A model generated the notes under the pieces. That model was not told where the DNA came from. It saw only the letters and a program-made list of their open reading frames with translations, and made no database searches. Made by a program: the position numbers and the translations under genes. Shown here piece after piece: positions 5,354-49,001 of a DNA stretch of 50,696 bases. The stretch spans positions 1 through 50,696 of IMG/VR virus record IMGVR_UViG_3300029915_000038; one strand, 5' to 3'. This stretch comes from a virus. Every line of letters starts with the position of its first letter. The first letter of the stretch is position 1.

Positions 5354-5857
5354 TTAAGACACCAATTTAGCCACTAATTTGACATTAATTGTTGGCTTCT
5401 TGATATATTCAATTGCCTTACCATTTTGTTGAATAGCAGCCATTTGCATGGCTTCAGTTGGATTGTCGATGAATACAATTGCACGACCATCTTGTCGAAC
5501 AGCAGCCATTTGCACAGCTTCGCTTGGATTCCTGATGTATTGAATTGCACGACCATATTGTTGAACAGCAGCCAGTTGCACAGCTTCGCTTGGCTTGCTG
5601 ATGTGGTAAATTGCACAACCATTTTGTTGAATAGCAGCCAGTTGCACAGCTTCGCTTGGCTTGTCGATGTAGCAAATTGCCCGACTAGTTTCTTGAACAG
5701 CAGCCATTTGCACAGCTTCGCTTGGCTTGTCGATGTATTGAATTGCACGATAATTTTGTTGAACAGCAGCCAGTTGCACAGCTTCGCTTGGATTGTCGAT
5801 GTATTCAATTGCACGACCATCTTGTCGAACAGCAGCCATTTGTTCTTTTTCATTCAT
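5354..5857 (-). CDS. DUF4116-like 22-residue repeat protein
   Basis: 167 aa, seven tandem 22-residue units (for example VQLAAVQQNYRAIQYIDKPSE) and a short C-terminal cap ending VKLVAKLVS. The pattern LAA-V/I-xQ-x-G-xAI-xxI-xxP-S/T-E is typical of a helical-hairpin solenoid, likely a protein-binding scaffold. The start MNEKEQ matches that of the paralogue at 430. Upstream is the TTG-initiated 5860-6027 gene, 2 nt away. Function unknown. Confidence 0.8.
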   Translation of the reverse strand: MNEKEQMAAVRQDGRAIEYIDNPSEAVQLAAVQQNYRAIQYIDKPSEAVQMAAVQETSRAICYIDKPSEAVQLAAIQQNGCAIYHISKPSEAVQLAAVQQYGRAIQYIRNPSEAVQMAAVRQDGRAIVFIDNPTEAMQMAAIQQNGKAIEYIKKPTINVKLVAKLVS

Positions 5858-8144: not shown

Positions 8145-9017
8145 TTAGTAGCCTATTTTTGCCATCATTCTCACAGCAGCAGTTGGATGTTTAATGAAAT
8201 TCAATGCACTTTTCTTTTTTTGCACAGCAGTCATTTGTAATTCTTCATCTGGAAATTTAACATATTTAATGGCTGTTGCAGCTTTGTTGATCGCTGCCAT
8301 TTGAACTTCTTTACTTGCATTTGGAAATAATGAAAGCGAACTTCCACATTTTTTAACCATAATAATTTGTATATTTTCGCTGGGATTATTTATTAATTTT
8401 AATACATTTTTGTTTTTTGCCAGCGCAGCTAATTGAATTTCTTCTGGTGGATTTTTAATATATCTAATACCATATGGATTTTTATTAACCAAAGCTAGTT
8501 GAACTGCCATAGACGGATTGCTTATATATTCAACTAGCTTTGATTCTTTCTCAACACAATAAATTTGAACCAATTCTGTTGGGTTCCCAATCAACTTAAA
8601 TGCCGATTTGCTCTTTTTAACAGCAATTAATTGAATTTCTTCACTTGGATTTTTTTGTGTTTTAATTAGAATATAATCCTTTTTTATTGCTTCTTTTATA
8701 ATTTTATCATTTGGAATATCAATAAATTTTAAAACATAACCATTTTGTTTAACTGCTACAATTTTTAAATCATCATCTGGATTGTCAATTAATCTAATCG
8801 CCATTCCATTTTGTCGTACAGCTTCTGTCATTATTTCATATGAAGGATTTTCAATAAATTCGAGCAGCAAACCATTTTGTTTAACAGCCTCTAACTTTTC
8901 CTGTTCTGTGGGATTTTCATTAAAAATGAACTCCCACAGATTTTTTGTAGATTTCTTTCTTGGTTTTCTCATAGTATTCCACACAAAGTCCCCATCCATA
9001 GTTTGAGTCCAACCCAT
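8145..9017 (-). CDS. Large DUF4116-like repeat protein
   Basis: 290 aa from MGWTQTMDGDFVW; this start follows AAGGGGG and lies 11 nt after the nrdJ stop, while the longer frame would overlap nrdJ. After a basic N-terminus (RKPRKKSTKNLWEF) come about 11 diverged 22-residue units (for example EKLEAVKQNGLLLEFIENPS, VQLALVNKNPYGIRYIKNPP). It is the most diverged of the repeat proteins, so an older copy, and probably a solenoid scaffold. Co-transcription with nrdJ is likely. Function unknown. Confidence 0.8.
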   Translation of the reverse strand: MGWTQTMDGDFVWNTMRKPRKKSTKNLWEFIFNENPTEQEKLEAVKQNGLLLEFIENPSYEIMTEAVRQNGMAIRLIDNPDDDLKIVAVKQNGYVLKFIDIPNDKIIKEAIKKDYILIKTQKNPSEEIQLIAVKKSKSAFKLIGNPTELVQIYCVEKESKLVEYISNPSMAVQLALVNKNPYGIRYIKNPPEEIQLAALAKNKNVLKLINNPSENIQIIMVKKCGSSLSLFPNASKEVQMAAINKAATAIKYVKFPDEELQMTAVQKKKSALNFIKHPTAAVRMMAKIGY

Positions 9018-9027
9018 AATTCCCCCT

Positions 9028-12000
9028 TCATCCGCATTTTGAATTTCCACATTGCAGGCATTTCTGGCACCCTGATTCATAAACAAGTTGACCATTACAT
9101 TCTGTGCATTTGGCCCCATCAATTTTTTCGCCATCTTTCACAAAACTTCCCAGCATCTTTTTAATATGAAATAGAAAACTTGAAAAAGTAACGCCATCAA
9201 CTTTATCTATTTCAGCAACAATATATTTGATTCTTACTCCATGACGTAATAATAATCCGATTGCTCTAGCAATTTTAACACTATTAGAATCATTATTGCA
9301 TTTTTTAAATGTTGATTCTATATATTGTTCTGGAATACCTTTTACTTTAGCCAACGCAAATAATTTTTCAATAGCATCATTCGTTGTTACTGATTTTTCC
9401 ATTGCATTGGTTTGAACAAATATTGCCACTGGTGCTTTATTTTCATTCAAACTAATCGTTACATACCATTTACGACTACTATCACCTTCATGATCATGCA
9501 GAACTTTCATTTCAGCAGACATATTATCAGGCAATTTTACATCTTCTAAAATAACTTCTTCATCTATATCATCATTTTTTTGATCAACTGCTGAAAGAAC
9601 AGAAGTCATTGATCCAGAACGATATGTGGTACATCCTTTGATATACCCAGTATTGTATGCATCTAAATATATATTTTGAAAATCTTCAAATAGATAATCA
9701 TTGGGAATATTAATCGTTTTTGATACACTGCTATCTAAATATTTTGCAAATCCCTCTAATTCAACCAAATGATCTTTGACTGATAAAGAAGTAGTTGTTG
9801 CTGCCCAATCAGCAGAAGGATTCCACTCTCCAAATTTAGTTAAATATCTAACTCCATAATCCTGACATAGAACTTCTTTTGTTAATCCTCTATTTTTATC
9901 GATTTTATATACAACTCCATTACTATCCACACCGCGTAAAATTTGCTCATCTCCTTCTTGGGAGAATTTAAACATATTAGTCTCAGCCCATTCTCCTTGA
10001 TTCCAATTTGGAGTTACATCTTTAATATGATCCGGCGTTGAAGATACGATAACTGTTCTAATATATTCAGACATAAATACGGGCTCAATTCCACCCGATA
10101 CAATCTGAGCTGTTACACCAGCATTTCCTGTTGGTTGGCAACTAAATAGTGAAGAATTTCTAATACCATTCTTGAGAATTCTTTTACGAAGATTTTCTGG
10201 CAAATCAATATTATCCCAATATGGACTAAAGGCATGTTTTTCTGGCTCACATAAATTAAACATTCCTTTTTCATCAGCTAAATCCAATGACGCTTCAACA
10301 CCAGCCAATGTATAAGTTTTTAAAATTTCAGTTCTTAGCTTTGTTGATTCTTTGGAACCATATTTGACTTTGAGAATAAATAATGCGCTTCCCCATCCCA
10401 TTAATCCTGCGCCAATTCTTCGTTTATTTCTCATTGAATTAATGTATTCTGGAAGAGGAGCATCTGAATAATCATTTACATTATCCAAAAATCTTATTAA
10501 ATATTTTGTATATTTCGCTAATTTATGTAAATCAAATCCAGTTCTATTTTTATTAATAAATTGAGTTAGATTTAAAGATCCCAAACAACAAATATTTTCA
10601 TTTGAAAGTAATTGCTCTCCGCAATTTGAAATTACCAATCCATTACAATCAAATGCATTAATTCCAGGGATTTCGCAATCCGCTACAATTTCATTTGGAA
10701 AATTTTCAATTGAGGATATTTCTGCTAAATATGTTTCTTTATGTAATCCATAAACATATTCAGTTAAAAGTCTTTCACATTTTTCTTTTTTATCTGAATC
10801 ATAAAATCCAATAATATTTAAATATTTTTCTATATTACTTTTAGATAATACCAATTCATGATTTGCTTTACATAGATATTCTTTTTTTCCACCTTTTCCA
10901 TCAGGCATATCCTTCAAACATTCATCTCTCTTGTTTTCATATATGGTAGAAACAATTCCCCATCTAACTAACATTCGTTGAATTGCTTGCAAATCTTCTA
11001 AATTGCTTTGACTTAGACGAATACTCAAACCTGTATCTCTATTTCCTTGAACAGACCCATAAGCATCAAACATCCCACGAATAAATCCTTTGCTGATATA
11101 AATATCTTCTTCAATTGTTTTATTTACATGTTTATTTGATGAAGTAAGTCCATATGATATTGCATAAGAATGCAAATCCTTAAATTGAATTCGATATTCA
11201 TTTCTTCCTTTTACTTCATGCCATCCTTTAAAAGTTTTTGCTGGAGAAGCATATTGAAGCAATTCTTGCATAACTTTATTACGAACATTTTTAACTCCTT
11301 CTGTATTTCCCCAAGAACATAAATGAGCATTTTTTCCACTAATATTTCCGTCCCCAACCAGCAATCCTAACGCATATCCAATAGCATCATTTTTTTCAGA
11401 TATTTTAACATCTACTGACGAATGATTATTAATAAAAATTTGATCACCAATAGATAATTTTCCAGCAGCAATCCAATCAATTTTATTATTTCTTAAAATT
11501 TTTATTTTATGATTTTCTGTAACTTTTAAGGTATAGCCATTTATTGTACTTATTTTTAAAATAGGCTTATTTCCTGATACAAAAAATCCCTTTTCAGAAC
11601 TATTCCAACAAATACCATCAACAATAGCAGTAAATGGAATTCCCAATAATTCTTTAACTTGTTTTGCTCCGCGACTTGTTGTTACCCATGAATCCAAAGT
11701 AACACATGGGTTACTTGCAAATATTTTTTCAGCATAATTTAATTCATTAAATTTATTTGCACGATCTAAAAATAAAATTCCAGGTTCATTTCTTGAATAA
11801 GTTGATTGAGTAATAAGGTTCCATAACCAATCTACTTTTACTGTTTGATAAACAATTACTGGATAATTTTTTTCTTGCCAATCTTGAATATCGCCGCACC
11901 ATTCTTCTTTATATTTTTCATAAGTTGTATCTGGAAAAATTAGATCCCATGTTATTTCATCGATTTGTTCCTGGCTACCACTTTCTTTTTTTAATTTACT

Positions 12001-12699
12001 AACTAACAATACTTTATCCATAAATTTATCAGAGCAGTTTATACTAAGATTAAATTTAGATAATCTATTGGAAGTTTGCTTTATAGTAATAAATTCAATA
12101 ATGTCAGGATGGGAAATATCCAAAATTCCCATCATCGCCCCTTTTCTTATTTTTCCTTTTGCTTTTTTATTTGAAGCTTTCTTTCCAGAACCTGCTGTAA
12201 TAATTTCAGAACTCTTGTCAAATAGTTCCATAAACTTTACTGCTCCAGGAGTTTCAACACCAATTCCTTTAATAAAAGTTCCTCTTGGTCGGATAAAAGA
12301 AAAATTCTTTCCCCACCCACCTTCGCTCTTTAAAGTAATTGATTGGCTTCTTAAAACTTCTAAAATTCCAGATAAACTATCGCAATCATATTTTGGAGTT
12401 GGACCAACAAAACAATTAATTAAACTTGTTCCACGAAATTCTGTACCTGCATTTGCTAAAATTCTTCCACCAGGAACGACAGAAAAATTACACATCATAT
12501 CATAAAATTTTTCTGCCCATTCTTTTCTTAAATCTTCTGTTTTTTCTACGCTTGCAATTGCTTGTGCAACACGATTAAAAGTATCATTAATATCTTTGTC
12601 TTTATAATTTTTATATGTATTTGACCATACTTCTTCAGAAAAGCTGTCTTCAAATACTGTAACTTGGGATGGGTGTGGGTTAACTAAAAAATCGTTCAA
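9028..12699 (-). CDS. nrdJ: Class II (B12-dependent) ribonucleotide reductase containing an intein
   Basis: Reduces ribonucleotides to deoxyribonucleotides using adenosylcobalamin, feeding phage DNA synthesis. The 1223-aa precursor holds a 361-aa intein (residues 332-692), leaving about 862 aa. Seen: SLINCFVG (first redox Cys, residue 96), the NP/CGEQL active-site loop split by the intein, SGGIEPV, IKGCTTYR near the C-terminus, and a final zinc-ribbon-like tail (CTECNGQ...CQKCLQCGNSKC) typical of NrdJ. The start is TTG at 12699, preceded by AGAGGAAAT; an ATG start is not available nearby. A weak promoter lies at 12750-12778. The DUF4116-like gene follows immediately. Confidence 0.9.
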   Translation of the reverse strand: MNDFLVNPHPSQVTVFEDSFSEEVWSNTYKNYKDKDINDTFNRVAQAIASVEKTEDLRKEWAEKFYDMMCNFSVVPGGRILANAGTEFRGTSLINCFVGPTPKYDCDSLSGILEVLRSQSITLKSEGGWGKNFSFIRPRGTFIKGIGVETPGAVKFMELFDKSSEIITAGSGKKASNKKAKGKIRKGAMMGILDISHPDIIEFITIKQTSNRLSKFNLSINCSDKFMDKVLLVSKLKKESGSQEQIDEITWDLIFPDTTYEKYKEEWCGDIQDWQEKNYPVIVYQTVKVDWLWNLITQSTYSRNEPGILFLDRANKFNELNYAEKIFASNPCVTLDSWVTTSRGAKQVKELLGIPFTAIVDGICWNSSEKGFFVSGNKPILKISTINGYTLKVTENHKIKILRNNKIDWIAAGKLSIGDQIFINNHSSVDVKISEKNDAIGYALGLLVGDGNISGKNAHLCSWGNTEGVKNVRNKVMQELLQYASPAKTFKGWHEVKGRNEYRIQFKDLHSYAISYGLTSSNKHVNKTIEEDIYISKGFIRGMFDAYGSVQGNRDTGLSIRLSQSNLEDLQAIQRMLVRWGIVSTIYENKRDECLKDMPDGKGGKKEYLCKANHELVLSKSNIEKYLNIIGFYDSDKKEKCERLLTEYVYGLHKETYLAEISSIENFPNEIVADCEIPGINAFDCNGLVISNCGEQLLSNENICCLGSLNLTQFINKNRTGFDLHKLAKYTKYLIRFLDNVNDYSDAPLPEYINSMRNKRRIGAGLMGWGSALFILKVKYGSKESTKLRTEILKTYTLAGVEASLDLADEKGMFNLCEPEKHAFSPYWDNIDLPENLRKRILKNGIRNSSLFSCQPTGNAGVTAQIVSGGIEPVFMSEYIRTVIVSSTPDHIKDVTPNWNQGEWAETNMFKFSQEGDEQILRGVDSNGVVYKIDKNRGLTKEVLCQDYGVRYLTKFGEWNPSADWAATTTSLSVKDHLVELEGFAKYLDSSVSKTINIPNDYLFEDFQNIYLDAYNTGYIKGCTTYRSGSMTSVLSAVDQKNDDIDEEVILEDVKLPDNMSAEMKVLHDHEGDSSRKWYVTISLNENKAPVAIFVQTNAMEKSVTTNDAIEKLFALAKVKGIPEQYIESTFKKCNNDSNSVKIARAIGLLLRHGVRIKYIVAEIDKVDGVTFSSFLFHIKKMLGSFVKDGEKIDGAKCTECNGQLVYESGCQKCLQCGNSKCG
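10624..11706 (-). mobile_element. Intein with LAGLIDADG endonuclease in nrdJ
   Basis: The intein covers residues Cys332 to Asn692. Splicing motifs: N-terminal CVTLDSWVTT (block A), VTENHKIKI (block B, TxxH-like), IPGINAFDCNGLVISN (blocks F/G), then extein +1 Cys of CGEQ, which is the thiyl-radical cysteine of the reductase. The penultimate residue is Ser instead of the usual His. The endonuclease domain has a first motif YALGLLVGDGNI with an intact Asp and a second motif IRGMFDAYGSV in which the catalytic Asp position is Tyr (codon TAT, one base from GAT), so cleavage is probably lost or reduced to nicking. Splicing must work for the enzyme to be active. Confidence 0.9.
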
Positions 12700-15042: not shown

Positions 15043-16002
15043 TTACTTAGAATGATATTTCTGAAATTTATTATTGAAGCTAACACAAACATCCAAACAA
15101 TTCTTAGAACAAATTGGATCAGTCTTGGTGTTATGATTCTTATACCATTCCAATCTTTCTTTACGAATGTTTGGACTCACAAAGCCAACAGCTTGCCCGC
15201 CTTCTCGCAAATAAATTATGCAAGGATAATGTTTGTTTTCACAAACAGCCATATCATCCAATACTAACCCGCACTTGTCTGTGTCATCATTTCCCAACCC
15301 ACGAACTGGTTTCCCTTCTTGAAGATTTTCAATTCTGTATTTTAGAATTGGATACTTATCAAGTAATTCTGTTGCCACAAAAACATTCTTCAACCTGTCT
15401 CCATCTTGGGCAGCGGGAATTATACGAATATCTGACACTCCAAGAGAATCAGCAAAAGTAATAATATCGTTAACTTTATCTGCATTAGCATCTGTTAATA
15501 CACATCCAACAGTCACATATGTCTTGGACGAAAGATACTTAATATTGCTAACAATTTTATCCCATTGCCCTTTTGTGCCTGACATAACATCGCCGTCAGC
15601 AGCACAGCAAGCATCAAGACTTACGCTGAAATCATTGCATCCTGCTTGCAACAAAGAATCGTACATATCTTTCGATGCAGAACCATTGGTTGAAATTGCA
15701 ACGTGCTCACATCCAAGTTCTTTTGCCAGCAATACAAGCTTTACAATGCCAGGATACAGCGTGGGTTCTCCGCCACTAAATCTTATATTTTTTAATCTTT
15801 GCGAGGCCCATAAACGTACAACATTTTCTGCCTGCGAATAAGGCATATCTGGCCCACCGATATTTCTGCAATAACTACATTTGAAATTGCATCTTGAAGA
15901 GACTAATAATTCACATCTCTGCAAATCTGAAGTTGAAGATGAGTTTAAGCAGCGATTATCTGAAAGTGTATAGAATCCTATATTTATTAAATCATCAATC
16001 AT
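15043..16002 (-). CDS. Radical SAM enzyme with C-terminal Cys-rich (SPASM-like) region
   Basis: 319 aa from MIDDLINIG (ATG 16002, with CAGGAAGAG upstream). The radical SAM cluster motif is C38-x3-C42-x2-C45 (CNFKCSYC), followed by FSGGEPTLYPG and AISTNG, typical of SAM binding. The last 70 residues carry Cys residues including KCGLVL, YPCIIY and CSKNCLDVC, suggesting a second iron-sulfur cluster as in SPASM/twitch proteins. These enzymes modify peptides, nucleic acids or small molecules; the substrate is not evident. It is nearly coupled to the upstream gene (1 nt gap). A partner peptide, if any, is not obvious nearby. Confidence 0.85.
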   Translation of the reverse strand: MIDDLINIGFYTLSDNRCLNSSSTSDLQRCELLVSSRCNFKCSYCRNIGGPDMPYSQAENVVRLWASQRLKNIRFSGGEPTLYPGIVKLVLLAKELGCEHVAISTNGSASKDMYDSLLQAGCNDFSVSLDACCAADGDVMSGTKGQWDKIVSNIKYLSSKTYVTVGCVLTDANADKVNDIITFADSLGVSDIRIIPAAQDGDRLKNVFVATELLDKYPILKYRIENLQEGKPVRGLGNDDTDKCGLVLDDMAVCENKHYPCIIYLREGGQAVGFVSPNIRKERLEWYKNHNTKTDPICSKNCLDVCVSFNNKFQKYHSK

Positions 16003-16003
16003 T

Positions 16004-16276
16004 TTATTTCTCTTCCTGAAATATTTTTTCAAATTCATTTAGTCTCAAATGAAACCAAAATTGCTTTTCATTTTTGCAAAACATTATTGCGACATGATTT
16101 TCTTTTGGGCGGCAAATTAAATTTTCTCCGTAGCACCATCCAATTGCATATGTTCTTAGTATATCACGATTTGCAATTAACGCAAGCGTTCTACAAGGAA
16201 TATGAAAATCATCCCAAACGTTACCATTTCTCCAAATAATCCAATCGAATTGTGTGGCATCCATTTTTTGTATCAT
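16004..16276 (-). CDS. Hypothetical protein, possibly 3' part of a longer gene
   Basis: 90 aa, tryptophan-rich (FDWIIWRNGNVWDDFH, KQFWFHLRLNEFEKIF). The ATG at 16276 has no Shine-Dalgarno. The upstream 44-aa frame (16289-16423) ends in TAG only four codons away in the same frame, so readthrough would fuse both; alternatively one less A in a run at 16309-16314 would make an ATGA-coupled pair. Located directly before the radical SAM gene. Function unknown. Confidence 0.55.
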   Translation of the reverse strand: MIQKMDATQFDWIIWRNGNVWDDFHIPCRTLALIANRDILRTYAIGWCYGENLICRPKENHVAIMFCKNEKQFWFHLRLNEFEKIFQEEK

Positions 16277-37798: not shown

Positions 37799-37827
37799 AT
37801 GTTACTACAACTGCTTCAGAAAGTCAA
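37799..37827 (-). promoter_or_regulatory. sigma70-like promoter, leaderless type
   Basis: TTGACT (37822-37827), 17 nt, TAACAT (37799-37804), then CTAAAT and ATG 37792. The promoter starts within the 3' end of the endonuclease gene. Confidence 0.7.
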
Positions 37828-39259
37828 GAACTTTCAATTTAATTTTTTCTTTATTTAAGTTCCAATCAGACTCCCAAATATAAAATATATCAATATGTTT
37901 AGCTTTGCTCAATTCAAATTTATTTAAATCATATTTCCAAATTTCAAATGCTGTTTTATTTTTTATTTCATTAAAATCATCAGCTTCAAAAATAGTTGGA
38001 TTCATATGCCAATAGTCACCTTGAAATTCTATGGCTTTATTATATTTAAAGAAATAAAAATCAAGTTCATATGGTTTAATTTGGGTTCTATTATTTGATT
38101 CAAATAAAATATTATTTTCTGTAAGCCAATTGTCTATTTCTAATTCTGTTATACTTCTCATTCCTCTGCAAACAAAAGAATCCAATTTGCGTAATCTCTT
38201 ATATAAAGTGCTTTCGGAAATACCTAATTTAACACAAGAATTTTGAATTCCATTAGATATAACAACTTCTTCTAATTTAGAAAGATCATTTAATATATTC
38301 AATGATTCTTTACTTATATGCAATTGAGAATAATTTTCGCAATCATATTTTCTTAAAAAATAATTTTTAACTTGAAGTTTTATTTCTGGAGACTGACTTG
38401 CGAATTCATATCCGTAATTTCTTTGATTTGTTATTCTCAATTTATCCATAAATTTTGGCAGTTCTAAAGCACGGTGAACTCCATACAATTTTACCATAGA
38501 ATCTTCCATACGTTTTATTAATTCAGGATAATATTCCATATCTTCATCGTAACAAAATCGCTCGGATATTGTATGTTGTTGTTTTTTCTGAAATTCTTCG
38601 CTTTGGAGAGCATATTCCACTCCATAATTGCTCACCATTGAATCTTTAATTTTATTTTGGATTTTAGTATTCAAAAATGGAGTTTTTGCTCCATATTTTT
38701 CTATACAAGTTTTCTCTGTTTTATTTCTAACATTTTTTGTTTGTTGAGGGTGACATCCATAATTCATTTTCCAAGTATGTTGGATTTTTTCTTTTATTGT
38801 GTCGTTGCTTGCTGGATTAGCACAACCATATTTTTCCAAATTAGTGTTTTTGATTTTATTTTGAATTTCTTTGTTACTAAATGGATTTTTGAAACCATAT
38901 TTTTCTAAATTAGTGTTTGACAATTTATTTTTAACTTCTTCAACTTGCATTGGGTTTGCCACTCCATATCTTTCCATGCAAGTTTTTCCTCGATTCATGA
39001 CAATTTCTTGATATTTATCTTTATGACATTGACATTTTTTGCCCAATATACATTCAGTAAATTTTTGTAATTCTCTTGAATATTTTCTAATTAATCCAGA
39101 ATATTTACAAATTGGAGAATCTTCTGGATGCAAAGCAGAATACATTAAAATATGTTTTGATTTTTTATTTTCCAATAAAATTGGATTACAATTCTCCTTA
39201 ACCCATTTCATTGGATTTTCATATTTTTGTAATTCAATTGGTATTTTTAATTTTGGCAT
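37805..39259 (-). CDS. Homing-endonuclease-like protein with KYG-NP repeats
   Basis: 484 aa. About nine repeats of 20-25 residues such as TNLEKYGFKNPFSNKEIQNK (residues ~95-320) are the DNA-reading modules seen in phage endonucleases (DUF7487-like). A helix-turn-helix (KLGISESTLYKRLRKL) and a C-terminal nuclease domain with ELEIDNWL, YELDFYFFKYNKAIEFQGDYWH and FYIWESDW (Vsr/restriction-like D...E-x-Q) follow. It sits immediately after the helicase gene, likely a mobile insertion into the replication block. No ribosome site is seen. Confidence 0.75.
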   Translation of the reverse strand: MPKLKIPIELQKYENPMKWVKENCNPILLENKKSKHILMYSALHPEDSPICKYSGLIRKYSRELQKFTECILGKKCQCHKDKYQEIVMNRGKTCMERYGVANPMQVEEVKNKLSNTNLEKYGFKNPFSNKEIQNKIKNTNLEKYGCANPASNDTIKEKIQHTWKMNYGCHPQQTKNVRNKTEKTCIEKYGAKTPFLNTKIQNKIKDSMVSNYGVEYALQSEEFQKKQQHTISERFCYDEDMEYYPELIKRMEDSMVKLYGVHRALELPKFMDKLRITNQRNYGYEFASQSPEIKLQVKNYFLRKYDCENYSQLHISKESLNILNDLSKLEEVVISNGIQNSCVKLGISESTLYKRLRKLDSFVCRGMRSITELEIDNWLTENNILFESNNRTQIKPYELDFYFFKYNKAIEFQGDYWHMNPTIFEADDFNEIKNKTAFEIWKYDLNKFELSKAKHIDIFYIWESDWNLNKEKIKLKVLDFLKQL

Positions 39260-46518: not shown

Positions 46519-47978
46519 TAAATTATTTTTTCAATAGAAAATGGAAATTTTTGTTCACTATAATACTTTTTCCTGCGAGTTAAGTGGCCCTTGCTCCATT
46601 TACACGTTGAACAAATATCCCAAATTATAGCACTATTTTTATCTGAAGCAGTTCTTAAACTTCTTCCTATACTTTGAATTACTTTAATCCAACTTTTTCC
46701 AGTTTCAACTAAAAACAAATGATTAATTCTTGGTAAGTCTAAACCAACTGCTGCTATACCTGAAGTCGCAATAATTACTTTGCTATTACTAATAGCAACT
46801 TCGTCATAATGTTCTTTTCTTGTTTTTGATTTCGTGGCTCCTGATAAAAATATAGAATTTTGTATAAGAATTTCCAACTTTTTGCCAGTTTCTTTTCTTC
46901 CTACTAACACTAATACATTCCCAGTTTTTGCAGTTTCTTTAATTAAATCTGCCATGAAATCTAATCTTTTTGGATCAGTAACCAAAAAATCCAATTCACT
47001 ATGATATGAAGTAAAAGATTTTGTATCTATCATTTGAATTATTTTTACTTCACAATTACTAAGAATTCCCAAAGTTTGCAATGATTCTGTTGTTAATTTA
47101 TGAACTAATTCCCCAATTCCAATAGTTAAATTAACAATTTCATGAGATTCTTTAGGAATTGTGCCTGTAAATCCCCATCTAATGGGTATTTTAGATAATG
47201 GCCCACACATTAAATCTTTTAATATAGTTCCTCTTAAACCATGAACCTCGTCGCATATAACTGCAACAACATTTTGAATAAAATCATCAAATGTAATAGG
47301 TTTTGATAATCCAATATCAATTGGAGTTTGATGTAATTTTTCAAGGCTTTGCCATGTACAAATAATATGTTTCTTTCCAAAAAAATCCTTTCTATCACCA
47401 TAGTAAACACCAACATCCAAACCTAAAATATTATAATATTGTTCAGTTTGAGTAATTAAATCTTTATTAGGAACTATTACAATACTTCTTCCATATTTTT
47501 CCACTTTTTTAGATAAAATAGCTGCCAATAAACTTTTTCCACTTCCTGTTGGAAGTGATGCAATCCCTTGAATATTATTCAATAATATGTTTGCTGCAAA
47601 AGTTTGATGATCTCTGATAATAATTGGTTTTCCTGATAATGAATGATTCTCTGGCCATAGAATGTTAGAAATATAATTATTATCAATATTATCAAATTCA
47701 AATGCTCGATTGTAAGTACGCAAATCCTCTAATTCGATTTCAAATTTTTGTTCTGTTAAATAATCAATTATTGGTTCCAACAAATTAATATATGTTTTTC
47801 CACTCAATGAAAAATAATATTCGCATCCATCCCATCTTCCAAGTCTTACAGAAGGTATAAATCTATTTGCTGGGTTAAATACTTTACTTTTAATATGAAG
47901 GGCATTACGAATATTTGCTGGTAAATTTTTAAACGTACAATTAACTTCATCATGTATTTGTAAAATTGTTTTTTGCAT
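46515..47978 (-). CDS. uvsW: UvsW-type SF2 helicase
   Basis: 487 aa. Motif I LPTGSGKSLL, motif II VICDEVHG (DEVH), motif III-like WGFTGTIPK, and C-terminal motifs ATSGIAAVGLDLP and QSIGRSLRTA fit T4 UvsW, a helicase that resolves recombination and R-loop structures. The N-terminal region (VRLGRWDGCEYYFSL) is typical of UvsW. ATG overlaps the stop of the upstream endonuclease gene (TAATG). Confidence 0.85.
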   Translation of the reverse strand: MQKTILQIHDEVNCTFKNLPANIRNALHIKSKVFNPANRFIPSVRLGRWDGCEYYFSLSGKTYINLLEPIIDYLTEQKFEIELEDLRTYNRAFEFDNIDNNYISNILWPENHSLSGKPIIIRDHQTFAANILLNNIQGIASLPTGSGKSLLAAILSKKVEKYGRSIVIVPNKDLITQTEQYYNILGLDVGVYYGDRKDFFGKKHIICTWQSLEKLHQTPIDIGLSKPITFDDFIQNVVAVICDEVHGLRGTILKDLMCGPLSKIPIRWGFTGTIPKESHEIVNLTIGIGELVHKLTTESLQTLGILSNCEVKIIQMIDTKSFTSYHSELDFLVTDPKRLDFMADLIKETAKTGNVLVLVGRKETGKKLEILIQNSIFLSGATKSKTRKEHYDEVAISNSKVIIATSGIAAVGLDLPRINHLFLVETGKSWIKVIQSIGRSLRTASDKNSAIIWDICSTCKWSKGHLTRRKKYYSEQKFPFSIEKIIY

Positions 47979-48901
47979 TATATAATATCCAAAAAATCGT
48001 TAATTAATAAAGTAATATTTTTTCTTTCCCAATAAGGGATAATTAATAAAGGAATTTTATTCTTAAAACAATATTCATATTTAATTTTATCATGTTTTTT
48101 AACCAAAGAAAATAATTTTTCTCCAGATATAGTTTTACTTCCAAAAGAATGTGCTCGATAATGTTGTTTTCCTTGATACTCAATTAAACCCATTAATTGA
48201 GTATTTTTAACAATTGCAAAATCAAATGGTAATGGTCGAATATCTCTGCAATTCGCTATTCTATGTTGTGCTTTGAAATCAATATTCTGATTTTTTAAAT
48301 AAAAACTAATATCTTTCTCTCCCAGAGATTCTGAACATTTGAAACACCCACTCCCTCTTAAATGCTCAGATGGTCTTTGCTCAAAAATCCCATGAATAGG
48401 GCAAATAATTTTAATTTTTAATATTGCCCTTTCATAAATTACTTGGTCATAGATGTATTTAAAATTATGAATTATATTAGCCTTGGCAATAAATTTTTGA
48501 GTAGTAGATGTAACTAAAATTCTCCCACACATTTTACATCCTCTCCCAGATAAATGACTACTAATAGATTGTTTAAATTCTCCATGAACTGGACAACATA
48601 TAATTATTTTATCTTTTGTAGAATTAAATTCAAAATCAGAATATTTATATTTATAATTATATATTTTATTTGCTTTGCATAAAAATTCTTTTTTAGTAAT
48701 CTTCATATTAAAACTTTTACATTTAGGACAACCTTGCCCTTGAAGATGATTGTTTGGTCTTTGAATAAAATCACCATGAATTTTACATGTTATAAAAACA
48801 CCAATTTTACCATGTGTATAATTTACTCGATCATAACTATATACATTATTGTGAATTTTTAAAGCTTTTTCAATAAATTTTTGAGTAGTCCATGTTTTCA
48901 T
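47978..48901 (-). CDS. Homing-endonuclease-like protein with zinc repeats
   Basis: 307 aa from MKTWTTQKFIEKALKIHNNV (5 nt after a late box). Three repeats of about 70 residues: helix F-I/L-xKA-x-xIH, then I-xC-xxHG-x-F-xQ ... HL-x-G-x-GC-xxC (DUF723-like zinc modules that read DNA). C-terminal nuclease-like region PFDFAIVKN, GLIEYQGKQHYRA and KHDKIKYEYCFKNKIPLLII follows the PD-(D/E)XK type. Inserted directly before uvsW. Probably a homing or HEG-like mobile gene. Confidence 0.75.
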   Translation of the reverse strand: MKTWTTQKFIEKALKIHNNVYSYDRVNYTHGKIGVFITCKIHGDFIQRPNNHLQGQGCPKCKSFNMKITKKEFLCKANKIYNYKYKYSDFEFNSTKDKIIICCPVHGEFKQSISSHLSGRGCKMCGRILVTSTTQKFIAKANIIHNFKYIYDQVIYERAILKIKIICPIHGIFEQRPSEHLRGSGCFKCSESLGEKDISFYLKNQNIDFKAQHRIANCRDIRPLPFDFAIVKNTQLMGLIEYQGKQHYRAHSFGSKTISGEKLFSLVKKHDKIKYEYCFKNKIPLLIIPYWERKNITLLINDFLDII

Positions 48902-48906
48902 AATAG

Positions 48907-48914
48907 TATTTATC
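48907..48914 (-). promoter_or_regulatory. T4-late-type promoter box, 5 nt from ATG
   Basis: GATAAATA, then CTATT and ATG 48901 on the minus strand. Confidence 0.7.
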
Positions 48915-49001
48915 AAAAAACAGATAATTTGTAACTTTAATACAAATTCTTTTATTTAGTGTAACATGCACTAATACTCATTGTCAATAAATATTATTTA
49001 A

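Follow-up and report, generated by a model that had tools for sequence, protein, structure and literature searches.

A phage class II ribonucleotide reductase gene interrupted at its catalytic cysteine by an intein with a probably inactivated endonuclease

Results and discussion

An intein splits the active site of a phage class II ribonucleotide reductase

The window, i.e. the whole stretch of 50,696 nucleotides that was analysed (IMG/VR virus record IMGVR_UViG_3300029915_000038), carries on its minus strand an nrdJ gene whose coding sequence is interrupted by an intein:

9028-12699, minus strand: nrdJ, adenosylcobalamin-dependent class II ribonucleotide reductase (RNR), intein-interrupted (TIGR02504, PF02867, PF00317, PDB 1xje)
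11707-12699, minus strand: N-extein, last residues IFASNP (tblastn against intein-free relatives stops at exactly this boundary)
10624-11706, minus strand: intein of 361 amino acids, class 1 type with C1, T63xxH66, D343, N361 and C+1 (PF14528, PF14890, TIGR01445, intein-free relatives, splicing residues, AlphaFold)
9028-10623, minus strand: C-extein, first residues CGEQLL (intein-free relatives)
10621-10623, minus strand: Cys+1 of the C-extein, splicing nucleophile and, once spliced, thiyl-radical cysteine (aligned with Cys322 of T. maritima NrdJ, 1xje)

The open reading frame comprises 1223 codons from a TTG start and remains open through the intein. In profile searches, its product matches PF02867 and PF00317, and it reaches 400.3 bits against NCBIfam TIGR02504 (NrdJ_Z), barely over the cut-off of 399.95. 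Its best solved relative is the NrdJ of T. maritima (1xje). The NP-CGE residues, which would form the NxCxE active site after splicing, align with the region of Cys322 of this enzyme, the thiyl-radical cysteine of class II reductases. In keeping with a class II enzyme, no NrdB-like small subunit (PF00268) was found in the 127-kb record of this phage described below, a record that is possibly incomplete.

The intein is inserted in frame between NP and CGEQ and runs from C1 to N361. It matches PF14528 with 68.9 bits, and PF14890 and TIGR01445 slightly below their cut-offs. Its boundaries are exact, because seven NrdJ relatives from viral contigs (L004-L010) run unbroken across this point as TNP-CGEQ or SNP-CGEQ; against such intein-free relatives, the end of the N-extein alignment and the start of the C-extein alignment fall on adjacent bases. 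These relatives and the alignment to Cys322 bear out the preliminary description, according to which the intein splits NP/CGEQ so that its +1 residue is the thiyl-radical cysteine. Furthermore, since the N-extein contributes the Asn of NxCxE and the C-extein contributes its Cys and Glu, splicing has to be exact, as that description had also held. From the known NxCxE mechanism, the unspliced protein would be incapable of reductase activity.

A separately assembled record of 127 kb (IMGVR_UViG_3300028854_000008) spans the window except for its first few tens of bases. About 50.65 kb of it could be matched to the window, with four mismatches, none of them in the intein. Hence, a simple assembly error is unlikely to have altered the intein sequence, and a base-calling error would need to be shared by both records, which may have reads in common.

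Splicing residues

A protein search of viral contigs with the intein only recovered the same phage alone, whereas an alignment-based search recovered a family. Relatives from phage records, viral contigs and bacterial and archaeal genomes were aligned with MAFFT (67 rows). Three positions near the C-terminus of the intein are considered here:

10657-10659, minus strand: Asn350, block-F position (His in 49 of 67 rows)
10627-10629, minus strand: Ser360, penultimate residue (His in 51 of 67 rows, Ser or Gly in the other 16)
10624-10626, minus strand: Asn361, C-terminal Asn of the intein (Asn in 67 of 67 rows)

The window intein retains D343 as well as C1, T63, H66 and N361, and the latter four are invariant in the alignment. 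It thus has what defines a class 1 intein, i.e. an N-terminal Cys or Ser (C1), a block B TxxH (T63xxH66), a C-terminal Asn (N361) and a Cys, Ser or Thr at +1 (C+1). From these residues, we infer that it likely splices. Splicing would start with an attack by C1, after which Cys+1 would take over the N-extein by transesterification; Asn361 would then cyclise and the ligated NP-CGEQ would restore the active site.

The penultimate His, a common but not obligatory feature of class 1 inteins, is replaced by Ser360, as the preliminary description had noted. That description had listed this serine beside the altered motif, as though both belonged to one decay, a reading that does not hold up. Penultimate Ser is also found in L107, L108, L047 and L126, each of which has an intact motif-2 Asp (see below), and the SPbeta group has a penultimate Gly throughout. 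Npu DnaE is a fast splicer. Its C-terminus is IASN, i.e. with a penultimate Ser (sequence in PDB 4lx3). Variation of the penultimate His has been described for phage inteins, where its effects go either way, and a block-F His can substitute for that histidine (PMC5050341; PMC4031507). The window intein has neither histidine, a minor oddity that leaves a splicing domain without either of the side chains that normally promote the final step. Since both usually aid Asn cyclisation, the efficiency of splicing is uncertain. A penultimate Gly together with a block-F Ser occurs in three near-identical SPbeta-type rows; the combination of penultimate Ser with no block-F His is found, among the 67 rows, only in the window and in the intein at L047:1954-3051 (GAFDANGIYVSN), whose motif-2 Asp is intact.

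This rare pair (N350 and S360) could be viewed as the mark of an intein that is failing as a whole, with poor splicing and an nrdJ gene heading towards a pseudogene. However, nothing disrupts the open reading frame, the extein shows good conservation (73% to L004, branch of 0.20), every nucleophile is present and Npu DnaE splices despite its penultimate Ser. Overall failure of the intein is therefore quite improbable.

The second catalytic acid of the endonuclease is replaced by tyrosine

The intein contains a LAGLIDADG domain with two motifs, ALGLLVGDG (motif 1) and IRGMFDAYG (motif 2), whose catalytic-acid positions are as follows:

11350-11352, minus strand: Asp119 (GAC), catalytic acid of motif 1, kept (Asp in 66 of 67 rows; I-DmoI Asp21; end of helix 104-119)
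11059-11061, minus strand: Tyr216 (TAT), catalytic-acid position of motif 2 (Asp in 63, Glu in 1, Asn in 2 and Tyr in 1 of 67 rows; I-DmoI Glu117; end of helix 202-216)

Motif 1 is thus intact, and the exception at its position 8 is L101, which has a deletion there. In motif 2, the window alone has Tyr at position 8, and its codon is present in both records of the phage. A profile of the endonuclease region of the family aligns the positions 8 of the two motifs with Asp21 and Glu117 of I-DmoI, the known metal ligands of this enzyme, for which an E117A structure exists (PDB 5a0w). An active LAGLIDADG enzyme is expected to have an acid at position 8 of both motifs; here, Asp119 provides the first and Tyr216 replaces the second. 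In 64 of the 67 rows, motif-2 position 8 holds Asp or Glu, which marks it as the catalytic-acid site, and the endonuclease of the window intein is therefore probably inactive.

The AlphaFold model of the intein, built from 49 aligned sequences, has a mean pLDDT of 94.2 and an intact fold. It displays the two helices and the alpha-beta-beta-alpha arrangement of LAGLIDADG domains, in agreement with the PF14528 match and with structural matches to I-DmoI and PI-PfuI. The closest solved structures according to Foldseek are the inteins TliVMA, PI-PfuI, PI-SceI and PhoVMA, followed by I-DmoI. Helices 104-119 and 202-216 terminate at Asp119 and Tyr216, respectively, so that the model predicts Tyr216 at the helix end matching Asp119. 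Comparison and model thus agree with the preliminary proposal of an intact first motif, a Tyr in place of the expected Asp in the second and a probably dead endonuclease; double-strand cleavage has probably been lost, and with it the break needed for homing.

Asp214, at position 6 of motif 2, might in principle act as a substitute metal ligand and keep the endonuclease fully active. However, only 37 of the 67 rows have Asp at position 6, the others having Thr, Gln, Ser or Tyr, and this variability indicates that it is not the catalytic-acid position of the family; moreover, the helix that corresponds to the one ending in Asp119 ends, in the model, at Tyr216 and not at Asp214. We consider a fully active enzyme very improbable.

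Some change at the motif-2 acid position appears to be tolerated, since Asn is found there in two inteins and Glu in one. The two with Asn, L060:3001-4140 (viral) and L119:3001-4089 (archaeal MAG), lie at the same RNR site, as does L101:3001-4074 (Archaeoglobaceae MAG), in which the GD of motif 1 is deleted. Two other candidates were discarded. In a BLAST-based table, Tyr seemed to occupy the motif-2 acid position of L047 as well (EAYFS), but the full MAFFT alignment revealed a shift: L047 reads FSADG and keeps its Asp. Likewise, the replacement of Lys225 by Thr in the window might have meant that another catalytic residue is lost, but this lysine also varies in relatives with intact acids.

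Apart from Tyr216, the endonuclease domain shows no sign of general decay. Compared by identity, it is no more diverged than the splicing domain (rank 28 of 40 for the difference between the two). A count of changes at conserved positions revealed no excess either, with an even split (4 and 4). This suggests either a recent loss or some continued use of the domain. The domain, which is not decayed and is well folded in the model, could indeed have residual functions such as DNA binding, nicking or support of splicing. That it is kept for another role, as a nickase with low-rate homing, as a DNA-binding regulator of nrdJ or as a support for splicing without the assisting His, is in our view unlikely.

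A nickase would cut one strand with its remaining acid, and nick-induced recombination would allow homing at a low rate. Point-mutant LAGLIDADG nickases can stimulate gene conversion (I-AniI, cited in PMC3943268). In the window intein, Asp119 and the invariant Lys275 are retained, the fold is intact and the domain is not decayed. However, the change in the engineered I-AniI nickase reportedly affects a basic residue, not an acid, and PI-SceI with Ala or Asn at either acid was reported to be inactive with Mg2+; Tyr is larger than both. Such nicking activity therefore has a low probability.

A probably horizontally acquired intein

In the intein tree, the window and L019 form a group (89) within a set of nine rows (96) that includes inteins from Thermoanaerobacterium, Nitrosomonadales, Burkholderiales and Archaeoglobaceae as well as other viral inteins. 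All other rows of this set have the penultimate His and the motif-2 Asp; therefore, both changes probably arose in the lineage of the window. In the extein tree, the window groups with L004 and L005 (99) within a seven-member clade (100), whose other six members are intein-free. As the two trees disagree, the intein was most likely acquired horizontally. On these sequence comparisons, the phage lineage probably gained it with an endonuclease that was presumably working at that time. Alternatively, the intein could have been lost several times independently in the empty relatives.

The preliminary description had suggested that the intein may be past its homing phase. This is plausible, but the domain is not extra diverged and empty alleles are common. 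In the homing cycle, the classical reason for endonuclease decay is target exhaustion after fixation of the element (PMC3229294). Since empty nrdJ alleles are common among relatives, target exhaustion is not established for this phage. From the condition of the domain, we infer that the loss of the endonuclease looks recent.

Taken together, these data make it likely that a class 1 intein with an inactivated endonuclease was acquired horizontally at the catalytic cysteine and still splices. The intein, a standard class 1 element whose LAGLIDADG domain has two motifs, occupies a common site of a phage class II reductase, and the change from Asp to Tyr216 in motif 2 would prevent the double-strand break required for homing.

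Comparison with known inteins

Most of the relatives found interrupt RNRs at the same catalytic cysteine as the window intein. These include the inteins of SPbeta bnrdE, of Staphylococcus SPbeta-like nrdE and of many NrdJ and NrdA from IMG/VR and GTDB. They share with the window the insertion point before the thiyl-radical Cys and the architecture of an intein with a LAGLIDADG_3 domain, at 22-43% identity with the window intein. Unlike the window, which has Tyr, they keep Asp or Glu in motif 2, except for the Asn of L060 and L119.

PI-PfuI (1dq3), an archaeal intein endonuclease from an RNR intein, has the same fold as the window intein (TM 0.68 over the query), with 13% identity. It is an active enzyme in which both acids are present. 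By contrast, PhoVMA, the VMA intein of Pyrococcus horikoshii (PDB 7qst), a structural match found with Foldseek, resembles the window intein in having a folded LAGLIDADG domain with a loss of catalytic acid. It differs from the window intein by its host protein and insertion site, and by the loss of both acids and part of a helix instead of one substitution. As a precedent, PhoVMA, which lacks the block C and E acids, was described as degenerated and inactive, and it cleaved its site after the acids were restored (PMC8966425).

Therefore, both the common insertion at the catalytic cysteine and the existence of inteins with a dead LAGLIDADG domain, such as PhoVMA, are already known, and the window intein is a good but essentially ordinary case of a selfish element of a known kind that is in the course of losing its mobility. 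It was apparently caught soon after the loss of its endonuclease by a single amino-acid change. As near relatives have empty sites, a single lineage would allow a test of the order in which an intein invades, loses its nuclease and retains splicing during the homing cycle.

Other features of the window

Two proteins encoded elsewhere in the window, at 37805-39259 and 47978-48916 (both minus strand), match phage homing or HNH endonuclease families; they lie directly next to two helicase genes, one of them DnaB-like. A radical SAM domain protein, weakly similar to phage QueE-like proteins, is encoded at 15043-16038 (minus strand). Repeat-rich DNA is found at positions 1-485, 5391-5842 and 8145-9134, the last of these containing DUF4116-like repeats in an open reading frame that shares 107 bases with the 3' end of nrdJ. 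Many copies of the repeats, 80-91% identical, are scattered across the phage genome, and in IMGVR_UViG_3300028854_000008 they occur at about 44.9, 86, 101, 111, 116 and 126 kb. The repeat with which the window starts is not the same in the two assemblies.
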